Shown piece after piece: positions 12,754 to 17,193 of a stretch of 33,284 nucleotides of DNA. Each line of letters begins with the position of its first letter. The stretch's first letter is position 1. The notes beneath the pieces were generated by a model. The model was not told where the DNA came from and did not search any database. It saw only the letters and a list, made by a program, of their open reading frames with translations. This DNA is from Magnetospirillum fulvum MGU-K5 (lineage in GTDB: Bacteria; Pseudomonadota; Alphaproteobacteria; Rhodospirillales; Magnetospirillaceae), in the NCBI RefSeq assembly GCF_000442515.1, contig NZ_AQPH01000039.1, positions 1 through 33,284 on the forward strand, in the 5' to 3' direction. Both the position numbers and the translations under genes were made by a program.

Positions 12754-13159
12754 TCATTCCCCACCAATTCGAATGGCGCAGGAAGGGTCATACCCTTTCC
12801 TTAAGGCCGCCGATTGAGACGATGCCCCCCATTCCCGGTTGAGCTTCCAGGCCATTTGCATGGTGAGTAACCGCTTGCGGGACAAAATTTCAGACGCCCG
12901 CGACTGCGATCCGAAGGGGATGCCACGGTCTCGCTGGCTATAACCTTTCGGCTCCATCCGATATTTAATGGCGTCCACCGGATCGAGAGGGATCAATCGG
13001 CCAATTTGTGGCCTCATAATCAGAGATCATCAGGGCCAGAAGATCGAACTCATCGGCTTCCGACGTTCCAGGCTCTGGCTCATTTTCAAAGAAGCGCTCA
13101 ATCTCGGACAGAGCTTTTTCGTAGTCCACTTCGCAACGCAGGGGGCGAATGTCCATCAT
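12754..13159 (-). pseudogene. higA: HigA-type antitoxin, frameshifted
   Basis: On the minus strand from ATG 13159/13156 the translation begins MDIRPLRCEVDYEKALSEIE and reaches DYEATNWPIDP near 13000, the standard N-terminal half of HigA-family antitoxins. The frame then fails (SRSGGRH, stop at 12965). A second frame picks up exactly where it should, with LDPVDAIKYRMEPKGYSQRD and, later, SQSRASEILSRKRLLTMQMA, the HigA helix-turn-helix. One extra base (or two missing) around 12995-13000 accounts for the break. The last residues before 12754 do not look like a normal HigA end, and a hairpin-forming sequence (GGAAAGGGT/ACCCTTCC) overlaps them, so a second lesion is possible. Normally HigA binds HigB and represses the operon. 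Confidence 0.75.
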
Positions 13160-13336
13160 AACGTCTCCGCCATATTCAGCATGAGTTCCGATGAACTTCA
13201 CCAAAAGACGCTTGAATGTGTATAACACATGAAAAATAAGGCGGAATTTATTACCGCCAATATCAAAAATAACCTGGGTACCACCCACTAAATCCACCGA
13301 CATACCAAATTGTGTTTTGATATCGGCGGGTTCCGT
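13160..13336 (-). pseudogene. higB: HigB-type toxin, 3' half only
   Basis: Minus-strand residues EPADIKTQFGMSVDLVGGTQ, then VIFDIGGNKFRL and VKFIGTHAEYGGDV, follow the C-terminal half of HigB mRNA interferase-type toxins (typical text: SPADVK...NRVVFNIAGNKYRL...VRFVGTHAEYDRID). The N-terminal half is missing: upstream of 13336 the frame reads unrelated residues and runs into hairpin DNA at the end of the histidine kinase gene. There is no stop codon between this fragment and the antitoxin start, so the toxin remnant is fused in frame to HigA. The toxin is not expected to be active. Confidence 0.75.
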
Positions 13337-13363
13337 CCTTGACCCGTCGGTATAAGAGCGCCT

Positions 13364-13404
13364 GCCGGGAGCCATCGGCTCCCGGCCCCTTCCGTCCGGA
13401 AGGC
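13364..13404. terminator. Two adjacent hairpins after the histidine kinase gene
   Basis: GCCGGGAGCC-ATC-GGCTCCCGGC (13364-13386) is a perfect ten-pair stem, next to CCTTCC...GGAAGG (13389-13404). Both lie directly downstream of the histidine kinase stop (minus strand). They lack a T-run, so they may stabilise the 3' end or act in Rho-dependent ending. Confidence 0.5.
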
Positions 13405-14811
13405 TCAGGCTTCCTGCGTCGGCGGAAAGTCGAGCCGCACCACCAATCCAGGTGAATTGTCGCCCAAACTGAGTTGGGCTCCATGCAGCCGCGCCACCGC
13501 CTGAACCAGCGACAGACCAAGCCCGTTACCGGGGGTCGAGCGGGTGGAATCCAGCCGTACGAAGCGTTCGAGCACGTTATGGCGCGCCTCTTCCGGAACA
13601 CCGGGGCCGCTGTCACCAACAATGATCGCGATCCCGCCATTGCCGCCCGAGGCGGTAACGCGCACGTCGACCTTGCCACCGGCCGGGGTATATTTGACGG
13701 CATTGTCGACCAGATTGGCCAGCGCCTGGAACAACAGGTGACGATCACCCCGCAAGGACTGACCGGCCTCGCCGCCATAGGTGATCTTCAGATCCTTTTC
13801 CTCGGCCAGCGGCTCGTACAATTCGAACACGTCTCCGGCCAATTGAGCCGGATCGATCTGTTCGAACTGATCCAGTCGCCCCGAAGATTCCGCCTGGGAA
13901 ATCGTCAGAATCGCGTTAAAGGTCGCCAGCAGATTATCGGCGTCAGATAAGGTTTCCTCGAGGGTGCGATGATAGGCATCGCAATCCGAGGGGCCAAGCA
14001 GCACCAGATCGATCCGCGACCGCAAACGGTTCAGGGGCGTGCGCAAATCGTGGGCGATATTGTCCGAAACGGTACGGATGCCTTCCAGCAACCGTTCCAG
14101 TTCATCCATCATCTCGTTGAAGCTTTCGGCCAGTTGGTCGAATTCGTCGTCCGAGCCGGACAAGGTCATCCGCTGGCTGGTATCGCCACCAAAGATGTTG
14201 CGGGCGGTGCGGCTCATCTCCTCGACCCGCTGAAGCAGGTGACGACTGGTGAAATAGCCGCCGACCACTCCCAACTGAATCGTCAGCGCCAAGCCCCAGC
14301 CCAAGGCCCGGTTGATCGCCGATTTGACCCGGTTGGCGTCGGCGAGCGAACGGCCGACCAGCAGACGATGGCCGTCGGCCAGTTCATAGGCATGGGCCAT
14401 CACCTCGACCCCGGTCCCGCCCTCAACCACCGGCAACAGGTTGAAGCGGACCCAGCCCAGCATCGTCCCCACTTCGGTCGGCCACGCACGCAGATTGCCC
14501 GCGACGATGCGGCCATCCCCGGCGCGCAGGGCATAGGTGGCGCGGCCGTCGATATCCTGACGGGTGCGTTGGGCGATGATCTCGGACAGGCCGGGAATGG
14601 CGCGATCGCGATAGACTTCGTAAAGGCCGGTGGCTTCGGCCTCGACCGTCTCCTGCACCTGCCACTCGATGAACATCGTCGTGCTCCACGACACCAGCGC
14701 CAACAGCGCCACCGCCGAAACGGTGAAGATGCCGAGATAGCTCAGCGCCAGACGGAACGTGGTGGTGCGAAGAAGACTAGCGGGCCGCACGAAGCGTATA
14801 CCCCGCGCCAC
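13405..14811 (-). CDS. Two-component sensor histidine kinase (HAMP, HisKA)
   Basis: The 468-residue inner-membrane kinase has a membrane helix at about 20-42, a periplasmic region at about 45-165 and a second helix at about 168-188. A HAMP linker (about 188-245) precedes the dimerisation helix with phospho-acceptor H254 in NIAHDLRTPL. The ATPase domain has N-box N370 (NLVDNAVKYTP), G1 DSGPGV (400-405) and GNGLGL (428-433). It partners the OmpR-type regulator encoded immediately upstream; the genes overlap by 35 bases if GTG 14811 is used, or by 14 with GTG 14790. The periplasmic domain is not one I can name, so the stimulus is unknown. No obvious target gene lies alongside. Confidence 0.93.
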   Translation of the reverse strand: MARGIRFVRPASLLRTTTFRLALSYLGIFTVSAVALLALVSWSTTMFIEWQVQETVEAEATGLYEVYRDRAIPGLSEIIAQRTRQDIDGRATYALRAGDGRIVAGNLRAWPTEVGTMLGWVRFNLLPVVEGGTGVEVMAHAYELADGHRLLVGRSLADANRVKSAINRALGWGLALTIQLGVVGGYFTSRHLLQRVEEMSRTARNIFGGDTSQRMTLSGSDDEFDQLAESFNEMMDELERLLEGIRTVSDNIAHDLRTPLNRLRSRIDLVLLGPSDCDAYHRTLEETLSDADNLLATFNAILTISQAESSGRLDQFEQIDPAQLAGDVFELYEPLAEEKDLKITYGGEAGQSLRGDRHLLFQALANLVDNAVKYTPAGGKVDVRVTASGGNGGIAIIVGDSGPGVPEEARHNVLERFVRLDSTRSTPGNGLGLSLVQAVARLHGAQLSLGDNSPGLVVRLDFPPTQEA

Positions 14812-15454
14812 GAACCGTATGAATCAGGGGCGGATCGAAATCCTTATCGACTTTTTGGCGCAGACGGCTGATGTGGACGTCGATCAGGTTGGTCTGGGGA
14901 TCGAAATGATATTCCCAGACATTTTCCAGCAGCATCGTCCGGGTCACCACCTGACCGGCATGACGCAGCAAATATTCGAGCAGGCGGAATTCGCGCGGTT
15001 GCAGGTCGATCAACTGACCGCCCCGGGTGACGCTGCGGCCGAGCAGATCCATTTCGAGATCTTCGACCTTCAGCCGGGTTTCCGGCTGTGCCGCCGACAC
15101 CCGCCGGGACAGCGCTTCGATTCGGGCCAGCAATTCAGCAAAGGCATAGGGCTTGACCAGATAATCGTCACCGCCCGCCTTCAACCCCTTGACCCGGTCA
15201 TCGACCTTGCCCAGGGCGGACAGGACCAGCACCGGGGTGACGTTGCCCGAGGCGCGGATCGCCTGAATGATTGCCAGCCCGTCGAGACCGGGCAACATCC
15301 GATCGACGATCATCGCGTCCCAGCGCTCACTCGTCGCCATGAACAGGCCGTCGGTGCCGGTCGCGGCAAGGTCAACGACATGACCGGCTTCCCTAAGGCC
15401 CTTGGCCATATAGGCGGCTGCCTCGGTATCGTCCTCGATCACCAGAATGCGCAT
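14777..15454 (-). CDS. OmpR/PhoB-family response regulator
   Basis: The 225-residue regulator has a receiver domain (1-115; acidic pair D8/D9, phospho-acceptor D51, S79, K101) and a C-terminal winged helix of OmpR type (about 128-222, with LQPREFRLLEYLLRHAGQVV and the recognition region near VHISRLRQKVD). ATG 15454 gives the standard family length; the frame is open further upstream to 15700 but without receiver similarity. It is co-transcribed with, and overlaps, the histidine kinase gene. It binds DNA as a dimer when phosphorylated; targets are unknown. Confidence 0.95.
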   Translation of the reverse strand: MRILVIEDDTEAAAYMAKGLREAGHVVDLAATGTDGLFMATSERWDAMIVDRMLPGLDGLAIIQAIRASGNVTPVLVLSALGKVDDRVKGLKAGGDDYLVKPYAFAELLARIEALSRRVSAAQPETRLKVEDLEMDLLGRSVTRGGQLIDLQPREFRLLEYLLRHAGQVVTRTMLLENVWEYHFDPQTNLIDVHISRLRQKVDKDFDPPLIHTVRGAGYTLRAAR

Positions 15455-15510
15455 GTCGCCCTTTCGGTCACAGTTCGGAGGCCGAACCTTACATCCTTCC
15501 CCCCTCATCG
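15455..15510. promoter_or_regulatory. Presumed promoter segment of the two-component operon
   Basis: Short segment between the response-regulator start and the hairpin at 15511. By position it should hold the minus-strand leader and perhaps the promoter. No good -35/-10 pair could be picked out. Confidence 0.25.
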
Positions 15511-15550
15511 AAAAGCCCCCGCGCCATGGGAAAACAGCGTGGGGGCTTTT
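15511..15550. terminator. Strong bidirectional intrinsic terminator (end of repeat unit C)
   Basis: AAAAGCCCCC (15511-15520) pairs with GGGGGCTTTT (15541-15550), extended inward by three more pairs. It gives a T-run on both strands. On the minus strand it would stop transcription coming from the repeat region before the two-component promoter. Confidence 0.75.
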
Positions 15551-15780
15551 GTCGGCGAGGGCGGACGCCGGGAGCACGTCCGACCCGTGACGTCGGTGCG
15601 TCGCCCCCACGACAGGAGGAGACACCCCGCGACGGCATTGCGCAGCCGCCGAACCCTTTGGACATAAACGAGACTTGTCGAAAACGACCGATCCCGTCAC
15701 TCGAACCTGATTGGGGAATGATGCCGATGGCCGGATTACACCGCCCTGTCATCGCTATGAAGCTTTGGTAACGATCACCA
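15511..15780. repeat. Tandem unit C (degenerate copy of the tlyA 3'-end/hairpin unit)
   Basis: Same layout and length as units A and B. A terminator-like hairpin sits at its left end (15511-15550). At its right end is the conserved core GGATTACACCGCCCTGTC (15733-15750), followed by a minus-strand reading PLVIVTKAS-stop that resembles the tlyA end NPIITKG-stop. The interior lacks the G6-loop hairpins but has CGGAC...GTCCG (about 15562-15582) with GGGA in the loop. Probably the oldest, most diverged copy. Confidence 0.5.
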
Positions 15781-15810
15781 GGGGGCAATAAGCGAGCGGT
15801 CAAAGAAAAA

Positions 15811-16095
15811 CCCTCGCGCCGGGGGGAACGCGAGGGCTGTTCTGTCTGGTCGAACCGTCTGGGGGGAAGACGGTCGGACTGTGGTGGATTGCCGATCCTT
15901 CAGGGGGGGGGGACAGAAGGCTGACAATCCAGGGCGGGGAGTTCAGGGCCGCCCTTTCAGAGGGGGGAACAAGAGGAAGATTGAGGTCGTTGGTTGTCTT
16001 TGAGTGAGGACCAAAGCTGATAAGTCAACAATGCCCGCTTACGGGTTACCGCGCCCTGTCGGAACGATTACCCTTTCGTAATGATCGGATTTTCA
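15811..16095. repeat. Tandem unit A: hairpin array with G-run loops plus copy of the tlyA 3' end
   Basis: Left to right: hairpin 15811-15836 (CCCTCGCG/CGCGAGGG, loop with GGGGGGAA); hairpin 15854-15874 (ACCGTCT/AGACGGT, loop GGGGGGA); nested hairpin 15886-15930 (GGATTG/CAATCC outside, CCTTC/GAAGG inside, loop with ten G then A); hairpin 15931-15955 (AGGGCGG/CCGCCCT, loop with GGAGTTCA); and a further GGGGGGAA at 15962-15969. A spacer with AAGCTGATAA, the core GGGTTACCGCGCCCTGTCGG (16043-16062) and a minus-strand duplicate of the last codons of tlyA (ENPIITKG-stop) follow. On the minus strand the first hairpin is followed by TTTTTCTTT, making it an intrinsic terminator. Confidence 0.75.
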
Positions 16096-16162
16096 CCCGA
16101 CCGCTCCCCAACAGATCCGGTCCCGCCCGGCCGGTCGCATTCTCGGGGGATGGAAAAGAAAA

Positions 16163-16440
16163 CCCCCGCATCAGGGGGGACCGATGCGGGGGGCTTCTGT
16201 GAAGCGGTCAGACCATGGGGGGACACGGTTCTGACCTTTTATTTGTGCGCCTTCCTGGGGGGACAGGGGGGGGTAAGGCGCACAAGATGGCGGGAGTTCA
16301 AAACCGCCGAAACAGAGAGAAGAGAGATGTCAGACAGACGTCTTGGCTGATGTTTGAAGCTGATAAATAGATGATGCCTGGACTCGGATTACCGCGCCCT
16401 TTCGGTCCGATTAACCTTTCGTAATTATCGGGTTTTCCGG
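16163..16440. repeat. Tandem unit B: second hairpin array with G-run loops, joined to the real tlyA end
   Basis: Same order as unit A. Hairpin 16163-16192 (CCCCCGCATC/GATGCGGGGG, loop AGGGGGGACC); hairpin 16206-16236 (GGTCAGA/TCTGACC, loop with GGGGGGACAC, followed by TTTTATTT); hairpin 16244-16284 (TGTGCGCCTT/AAGGCGCACA, loop with GGGGGGACA plus eight G); hairpin 16289-16308 (GGCGG/CCGCC, loop with GAGTTCA). Then AAGCTGATAA, the core CGGATTACCGCGCCCTTTCG (16385-16404) and the genuine tlyA terminal codons. Stem sequences differ from unit A while loops and order are kept, which points to selection on structure and loop. Confidence 0.75.
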
Positions 16441-17193
16441 AGCCGCCTCGGCAAGGTCCCGCCGTCCGACGATCAGGAACTCGCGATTGCCTTCGGGCCC
16501 CTGAATCGGGCTTTCCGAAATCCCTTCGACCCGCCAGCCGGGACGCGACGACAGCCAGTCCCTGATCCGCTCACAGACCTCCTGGTGCAGCTCCGGATCG
16601 CGCACAACCCCGCCCTTGCCCACCCGCCCCTTACCGACCTCGAATTGCGGCTTGATCAGCGCCGCCAGCACGGCACCGGGCCGGGTCAGGTCCAGCGCAG
16701 CGGGCAACACCGTCTCCAGGCCGATGAAGCTGGCGTCACACACCACCATGTCAACCGGCTCGGGGATGTCGGACGCGCTCAGATGGCGGGCATTGGTCCG
16801 CTCCATCACCACGACACGGGGATCGGTGCGTAATTTCCAGGCCAATTGACCGTGGCCGACATCGACCGCATAGACCTTTGCCGCACCATGGGTCAGCAGC
16901 ACATCGGTAAAGCCTCCGGTCGAGGCACCGACATCGATCGCGGTCTTCCCGGCGGGATCGAGCGCGAAGGTTTCGATCGCATGGGCCAGCTTCAATCCCC
17001 CCCGCGACACCCAGGGATGGGTCTGCCCCTTGAGTGTCAGCGGGTAATCCTCGGTCACCGCCGTACCGGGCTTTTCGACGCGGCGATCCCCGGAATAAAC
17101 CAGTCCCGCCAGGATCAACGCCTGGGCCCGCGCCCGACTTTCCACCAAGCCGCGATCGACCAGCAACTGATCCACTCGCATCCGTTCCGCCAT
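16411..17193 (-). CDS. tlyA: TlyA-family rRNA (cytidine-2'-O)-methyltransferase
   Basis: TlyA enzymes 2'-O-methylate cytidines in rRNA and were once called haemolysin A. The 260-residue product has an N-terminal S4 RNA-binding domain (about 5-65), then an FtsJ-like SAM-dependent fold with IDVGASTGGF at 86-95. The expected K-D-K-E residues are K68 (RGGLKL), D153 (VVCDASF), K181 (LIKPQFEVGKGRVGKGG) and E238 (NREFL). Start ATG 17193; ATG 17181 is an alternative. Its last eight codons (ENPIITKG) recur with only synonymous changes in unit A downstream. In many bacteria tlyA is associated with isoprenoid genes; here xseB-ispA-dxs lie just beyond the divergent hydrolase gene. Confidence 0.93.
   Translation of the reverse strand: MAERMRVDQLLVDRGLVESRARAQALILAGLVYSGDRRVEKPGTAVTEDYPLTLKGQTHPWVSRGGLKLAHAIETFALDPAGKTAIDVGASTGGFTDVLLTHGAAKVYAVDVGHGQLAWKLRTDPRVVVMERTNARHLSASDIPEPVDMVVCDASFIGLETVLPAALDLTRPGAVLAALIKPQFEVGKGRVGKGGVVRDPELHQEVCERIRDWLSSRPGWRVEGISESPIQGPEGNREFLIVGRRDLAEAAPENPIITKG

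Follow-up and report, generated by a model that had tools for sequence, protein, structure and literature searches.

The CcsR/cuckoo RNAs present C-rich anti-Shine-Dalgarno (anti-SD) loops. As set out in the excerpts cited here, an RpoHI/RpoHII promoter drives CcsR (CIN1 locus) together with a DUF1127 gene, and RNase E cuts the joint transcript (PMC10253847); the alpha-r14 RNAs have three diverged hairpins, each with one CCUCCUCCC loop (PMC10746234, PMC3927594). For mycobacterial B11/6C, compensatory mutants in the same kind of excerpt indicate that either of two six-C loops suffices against a six-G tract (PMC10470900; also PMC8628891). The multicopy Listeria RNAs LhrC1-5 are described there as having UCCC motifs in a single-stranded stretch as well as in loops, that of the terminator among them; they depend strictly on the LisRK two-component system, are induced by envelope stress, and block a Shine-Dalgarno site (PMC4132741). 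Caulobacter SisA-D, from the part of the paper cited, offer a general parallel only (PMC12559287).

We analyzed a 33,284-nt stretch of DNA from Magnetospirillum fulvum MGU-K5 (the window), which contains three tandem sRNA-like units, B, A, and a diverged unit, C. Their likeness to the alpha-r14/NfeR1 RNAs (SmelA075 and SmelA099) lies in an alphaproteobacterial host, in three or four hairpins whose stems have diverged strongly around a shared C-rich anti-SD loop, as far as the excerpts describe them, and in a subthreshold similarity to Rfam ar14 on the same strand. The loop differs, being CCUCCUCCC there and C5-C6 runs plus CUCCCC in the window units, and NfeR1 differs further in its control by LsrB and NtrC. 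The Rfam ar14 model (RF02344, gathering threshold of 58.8 bits) was not reached by unit B (33.8 bits) or unit A (27.8 bits), and the best locus tried (L043) scored 51.5 bits; with one copy at 51.5 of 58.8 bits, a distant common origin with ar14 is possible. Membership of ar14, judged by a CCUCCUCCC loop on each hairpin, was rejected, as the loops are C-runs; CCTCCTCCC has 0 occurrences in the window. The 6C/B11 RNAs share with the window units C-run loops on hairpins and subthreshold matches to the Rfam 6C model (RF01066, gathering threshold of 47 bits; 33.1 and 32.9 bits in the window and at best 39.4 bits, in L017), but they have two stem-loops and belong to another phylum (Actinobacteria), whereas the window family has three to five hairpins, a two-component-type operator, and many copies. 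LhrC, a Firmicute RNA, serves as an analogy only, envelope-stress control of the window family being suggested by the link to degP described below. The initial annotation had likened the locus to the CcsR/cuckoo RNAs. This comparison holds as a working analogy (tandem alphaproteobacterial sRNAs, C-rich anti-SD loops, divergent stems) but membership is not supported: the window contains no CCUCCUCCC, and the promoter and the neighboring genes are of another kind, with each window unit having its own promoter element and terminator and standing beside a response regulator (the locus neighbors are TlyA and a two-component pair). The sRNA family is not in Rfam at Rfam thresholds, and no paper on it appeared in the literature that we searched; it would be a new sRNA family built on a known C-loop principle.

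Hairpin arrays and their strand

Seven of the 10 plus-strand matches to GGGGGGA in the window lie inside the 498 bases from 15811 to 16308, where the shuffle mean expects about 0.07 (Poisson, ~2e-12). The whole-window total on both strands (13) was reached by 22 of 100 shuffles and is unremarkable, so the clustering is what counts. When units A and B were folded leftward, none of 200 shuffles was equally stable for either (z = -4.4 and -8.1, respectively); the fold of unit C was weaker (z = -2.7, 1/200 shuffles equally stable). The stems of units A and B are different, and their C-run loops recur in identical order. These results bear out the initial description of hairpin arrays with varied stems and with G-run loops (C-run loops on the minus strand) in a kept order. 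One of the seven G-runs, at 15962, falls outside the hairpin loops, in the leader of unit A, which is predicted to be unpaired.

The minus strand has two intrinsic terminators, at 16192-16163 and 15838-15809, and the T-runs that had been taken to favor a leftward reading belong to them; no intrinsic terminator was found on the plus strand in 15400-16500. Over 15804-16410, there is no ORF of at least 100 codons. Because the terminators are on the minus strand only and a conserved promoter element has the same orientation, transcription is predicted to run leftward. These results indicate that the hairpins are real and that the leftward anti-SD reading is the better one. The initial annotation had missed two features, the diverged third unit C (~15505-15711) and the promoter element before each unit (Table 1). 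Transcription of unit B would be expected to start near 16364; a sigma-70 scan gave no consensus sigma-70 promoter for this unit. In unit C, the C-runs are shortened (CUCCUCC, CUCCC) or paired, and the RNA-body model R2 (see below) gave no match to unit C in the source genome at an E value of <=0.001. The top NCBIfam model for the response regulator was CztR/SilR/CopR (264 bits, under the cutoff of 279.2), and the histidine kinase was CztS-like (191.4 bits, under the cutoff of 292.55). Directly downstream of the histidine kinase gene lies a HigB/RelE-like toxin match (PF09907, 63.3 bits; 12965-13375, minus strand).

Table 1. Coordinates of the sRNA-like units and adjoining genes in the window
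Feature	Position	Strand	Basis
Unit B operator, TAATTAC / GGTTAAT / CCGAAAG / CGGTAAT, 11-bp steps	16388..16427	-	R1 match 16354-16429, E 6.6e-20 (model seed)
Putative -10 of unit B, CATCAT	16371..16376	-	Inferred from conserved spacing within element
Unit B sRNA-like unit, predicted 5' end to U-tail	16152..16364	-	Fold z -8.1; R2 match 16158-16311
Unit B hairpin H2, GGCGG-UUUUGAACUC-CCGCC	16289..16308	-	Predicted fold
Unit B hairpin H3, with C-runs	16245..16283	-	Predicted fold
Unit B hairpin H4, loop UCCCCC	16206..16236	-	Predicted fold
Unit B terminator hairpin H5, C-run loop, U-tail to ~16152	16163..16192	-	Terminator scan
Unit A operator, TCATTAC / GGGTAAT / CCGACAG / CGGTAAC	16045..16084	-	R1 match 16011-16086, E 2.4e-19 (model seed)
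Putative -10 of unit A, CATTGT	16028..16033	-	Inferred from conserved spacing
Unit A sRNA-like unit	15802..16021	-	Fold z -4.4; R2 match 15806-15956
Unit A unpaired leader, C6	15962..15967	-	
Unit A hairpin H2	15931..15955	-	
Unit A hairpin H3	15886..15930	-	
Unit A hairpin H4	15849..15879	-	
Unit A terminator	15809..15838	-	
Unit C operator, TCGTTAC / GCTTCAT / GATGACA / GTGTAAT	15735..15774	-	R1 match 15701-15776, E 3.4e-16 (model seed)
Unit C, diverged copy adjoining regulator gene	15505..15711	-	Terminator ~15511-15550
OmpR/PhoB-family response regulator, candidate activator	14777..15454	-	Response_reg + Trans_reg_C
Sensor histidine kinase, probable partner of regulator	13405..14811	-	HAMP, HisKA, HATPase_c

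Selection on structure and linkage to a response regulator

When run on MAFFT alignments, RNAalifold failed to recover H3, and for A5 it retained the terminator helix alone; we therefore used an arm-permutation test. With their own partner arms, hairpins H3, H4, and H5 had mean stabilities of -12.7, -13.2, and -24.2 kcal/mol, and with arms permuted between sequences, the means were -7.3, -7.2, and -19.8 kcal/mol; the observed mean was reached by 0 of 2,000 permutations for each of the three. The sample comprised 32 sequences from five genera (g1, g3, g5, g6, and g8) and omitted the three C units, short copies, the near-duplicates L020 and L212, and genera g2 and g10; its hairpins were chosen from predicted folds with CCC in or beside the loop, and its sequences are related and hence not independent. 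A C5 run stood in the loop of 27 of 28 distinct H3 hairpins, 26 of 29 H4 hairpins, and 17 of 20 H5 hairpins, counts that are biased toward C because of the same choice by CCC. A conserved hairpin, GGCGG-N-GAACUCCCC-GCC, presents CUCCCC. Between species, the stems diverge with pairing kept, and the loops retain their C-runs. The structure is under selection, as the initial annotation had proposed from varied stems with kept pairing, and stems that vary freely around constant loops would be expected of an RNA whose loops are its working parts.

A plain DNA search matched only 4 of 60 relatives beside the source genome's own listing, and we therefore built models of the promoter element (R1, sequence only) and of the RNA body (R2, 18 seeds, with only the terminator helix as structure). 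Since both were built from the source's family, their seeds match by construction. With the 10 best first-look candidates per genome scored, R2 matched 35 of 297 genomes of the order, all of them among the 55 genomes of Magnetospirillaceae, the source's family (seven genera), and gave no match in the 242 other genomes of the order. Within the genomes searched, the range of the sRNA is one bacterial family.

The same OmpR-type response-regulator gene lies 33 to 119 nt downstream of the terminator in 34 of the 35 genomes with R2 matches (24/25 and 10/10); the sole exception is G025, where the sRNA does not adjoin the regulator. A TA(A/T)GGT motif occurs in 30 of the 34 regulator leaders, 32 to 37 nt before the regulator ATG in 25 of 34. 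The regulator gene may have a second promoter at this motif, so that autoregulation through the sRNA promoter would not be required. A G5 run was present in the regulator leader of just 11 of 34 genomes, and we rejected cis feedback by way of such a run. In the window, a GGGGGGAAGG tract lies at ~15485-15505, at the start of the regulator leader, as it does in L002 and L003 (three Phaeospirillum-type genomes), and is a possible pairing partner for the C-loops of units A and B.

The promoter element, its copies, and degP

Eleven seeds, taken from the window and from close relatives, aligned without gaps across 78 columns of the upstream element. In a search that scored the 150 best of ~1,900 first-look candidates across 17 genomes of the source's genus, R1 found 15 copies in the source genome; two near relatives had 12 and 13, G007 had two, and the remaining 13 genomes had one each. 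The second G007 match (E = 0.006) is a pstS promoter. Each of the 15 copies in the source genome is followed by an sRNA-like unit, and 12 of the 15 lie outside the window locus. A terminator was found by script in 14 of the 15 and in the last (L047) by eye only, with a UUU tail. Ten of the 15 have a run of C5 or longer in a predicted terminal loop, and five, including unit C, do not. The copies come as long units (four or five hairpins), as short units (68 to 108 nt to the terminator, with one or two C-loops), and as a third type with the GAACUCCCC hairpin and without a C5 loop. Two short copies near contig starts, L038 and L040 (G000:C42:507-580 and G000:C102:500-571), are nearly identical, possibly through recent duplication or through a repeat that broke the assembly. 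L032 and L033, copies in G004 and G000, have similar downstream sequence as judged by eye, so that some of the dispersed copies look older than the species split.

To place the element outside the genus, we took relatives of the regulator in named genomes (the best 80 of at least 575 loci). Among these best 80, all nine loci of the source's family have R1 matches before the regulator, and 50 of the 71 loci outside the family have a DegP-type ORF directly before it; the one such ORF checked, from Roseibium litorale, scored above the TIGR02037 cutoff. A matrix made from 19 sRNA elements of the source's family (a slightly different, earlier matrix had 24) gave its top sense match at the start of the DegP-type ORF in 36 of the 50 loci, the element being unrecognizable there in 14. 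The element score exceeded the highest antisense score of all 71 loci in 20 of the 50 and failed this control in 30. Among the 21 loci without a DegP-type ORF, only L118 passed, at 162 nt before the regulator. Infernal searches with R1 over the best 80 loci returned 24 matches at an E value of <=1, all sense, of which 12 are in the source's family and 12 lie where degP begins (nine of the latter with an E value of <0.01); at L152, the open frame extends further upstream of the match.

The aligned boxes show four half-sites in 11-bp steps, approximately TTAC / (G/T)TAAT / GACAG or GAAAT / GTAA(G/C/T), and the layout of the unit B operator is that of the elements at degP starts. Four half-sites at 11-bp steps are the usual operator geometry of the OmpR/PhoB family. 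Because the element follows the regulator's operon beyond the source's family, it is probably the regulator's own operator (binding is predicted from these alignments), with its output moved from protease to sRNA. We rejected degP as a remaining target of the regulator in the source's genus, as the operator was found at 0 of the 19 loci of degP relatives scanned there (of 30 fetched). The part cited of the paper on the Brucella regulator EssR gives no operator motif (PMC10592609). In nine loci of Roseibium and its relatives (L131, L137, L147, L148, L149, L151, L153, L156, and L160), a recurrent hairpin whose loop contains CCTCTGCCCC(C) lies between degP and the regulator gene, upstream of position 2501, as another C-rich hairpin in the operon.

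Proposed mechanism and alternatives

The explanation that we favor, with a probability of about 0.65, is a regulator-driven, leftward, trans-acting sRNA family whose C-run loops block G-rich Shine-Dalgarno regions. The locus would hold three tandem leftward genes of this family, giving RNAs of ~200 nt. An OmpR/PhoB-type response regulator would bind the four-step, 11-bp operator and switch each sRNA on; the activator is most likely the one encoded directly downstream (14777-15454, minus strand), which probably controls itself too. The hairpins, including that of the terminator, would display C-runs in their loops (UCCCCCC, CUCCCC). Acting as redundant seeds, these may base-pair to Shine-Dalgarno regions with a G-run or GGGGAG and so block translation, probably with the involvement of Hfq. 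A trans-acting, Hfq-type sRNA would be expected to have its own promoter, a Rho-independent terminator with a U-tail, and Hfq in the genome; the analysis found intrinsic terminators, a conserved promoter element, and an Hfq gene, with transcription and Hfq binding predicted. The operator, which appears to serve degP-regulator operons in other Alphaproteobacteria, would have come to drive an sRNA in the family ancestor, and the sRNA would then have multiplied to 12 to 15 copies in the Phaeospirillum clade. Whether a C-loop sRNA took over from the periplasmic protease gene degP as the main output of the two-component system when the family arose, leaving Phaeospirillum with an almost RNA-only regulon of 12 to 15 genes, we regard as evenly balanced.

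As for candidate targets, the source genome has 23 AGGGGGGA-N1-10-ATG sites, and the backwards control gave 8. ORFs of at least 100 codons begin at 15 of the 23 sites and ORFs of fewer than 60 codons at eight, two of these eight lying in the window's own sRNA locus and regulator leader. Among the 12 of the 15 ORFs that were scanned, matches from near the first residue were to a FabG-type reductase, a family-3 solute-binding protein, an FrhB/FdhB-type protein, a polyprenyl synthetase, NuoJ, an IcmF-like protein (partial), and a STAS protein; an integrase match starts inside its domain, and four ORFs had no match. This enrichment could be explained by strong Shine-Dalgarno sequences alone, and we treat the sites as a lead and not as target evidence.

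Who switches the sRNAs on can be read differently. The pstS promoters of the genus share the layout of the element, and PhoB could therefore be the regulator: in 16 of 17 genus genomes (one locus is without upstream sequence), pstS has the same four-step arrangement with the -10 distance within one base, in a Pho-box-like array of half-sites (GTCAC/TTCAT/GTCGC/GTAAC) with a TATGGT- or TAGGAT-like -10 (L053-L069). TIGR00975 was a poor PstS model in this genus (0/17 above the cutoff), and the PstS protein of L028 was therefore used instead. A pstS matrix scored all 29 sRNA elements (-10 to +17) above the 99.9th background percentile (-16) and in register, and the weak R1 match in G007 is itself a pstS promoter. 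However, pstS sites left out of training score 42 to 60, with the sRNA elements far lower, and the element accompanies the other regulator's operon outside the source's family. PhoB control, or cross-talk, is possible, and we consider it unlikely, though deserving of weight, that phosphate starvation acting through PhoB, and not the neighboring regulator, switches the sRNAs on.

Other alternatives concern what the RNAs do once made. If the C-loops bound a protein, a multihairpin RNA could titrate it as CsrB does, with C replacing GGA; the four or five repeated C-rich motifs that an RNA can carry on free stems would suit such a role, but five short copies show only one or two C-loops and the C-loop precedents pair with mRNA, which makes titration improbable. 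We give still less credence to a mainly cis role, in which the unit would serve the regulator operon as leader or attenuator: the unit's position before the regulator is conserved in 34 of 35 genomes, but 12 of the 15 copies in the source genome are away from the locus, and the G5 run is found in only a minority of the regulator leaders. The initial annotation had also allowed for a rightward transcript with GGGGGGA loops sequestering CsrA/RsmA. GGA does stand in the loops when the plus strand is read, but the terminators and the promoter element face left, and a search for CsrA (PF02599) gave 0 matches in the source genome, which is rated 100% complete, with the control search positive in three named genomes. 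Since no csrA was found, membership among the CsrB/RsmZ-type sponges was rejected, and we assign the rightward reading a negligible chance.

If the favored reading of regulator-driven C-loop sRNAs is true, it adds an sRNA family absent from Rfam at its thresholds to the magnetotactic and purple bacteria. It would tie this family to a regulator gene and to an operator, which opens the circuit to testing at both ends. It would also provide a case of a regulator exchanging a protein output for an RNA output. It would also suggest that circuits joining multicopy C-loop sRNAs to a two-component system of the envelope type had independent origins in Listeria and in the source's family.
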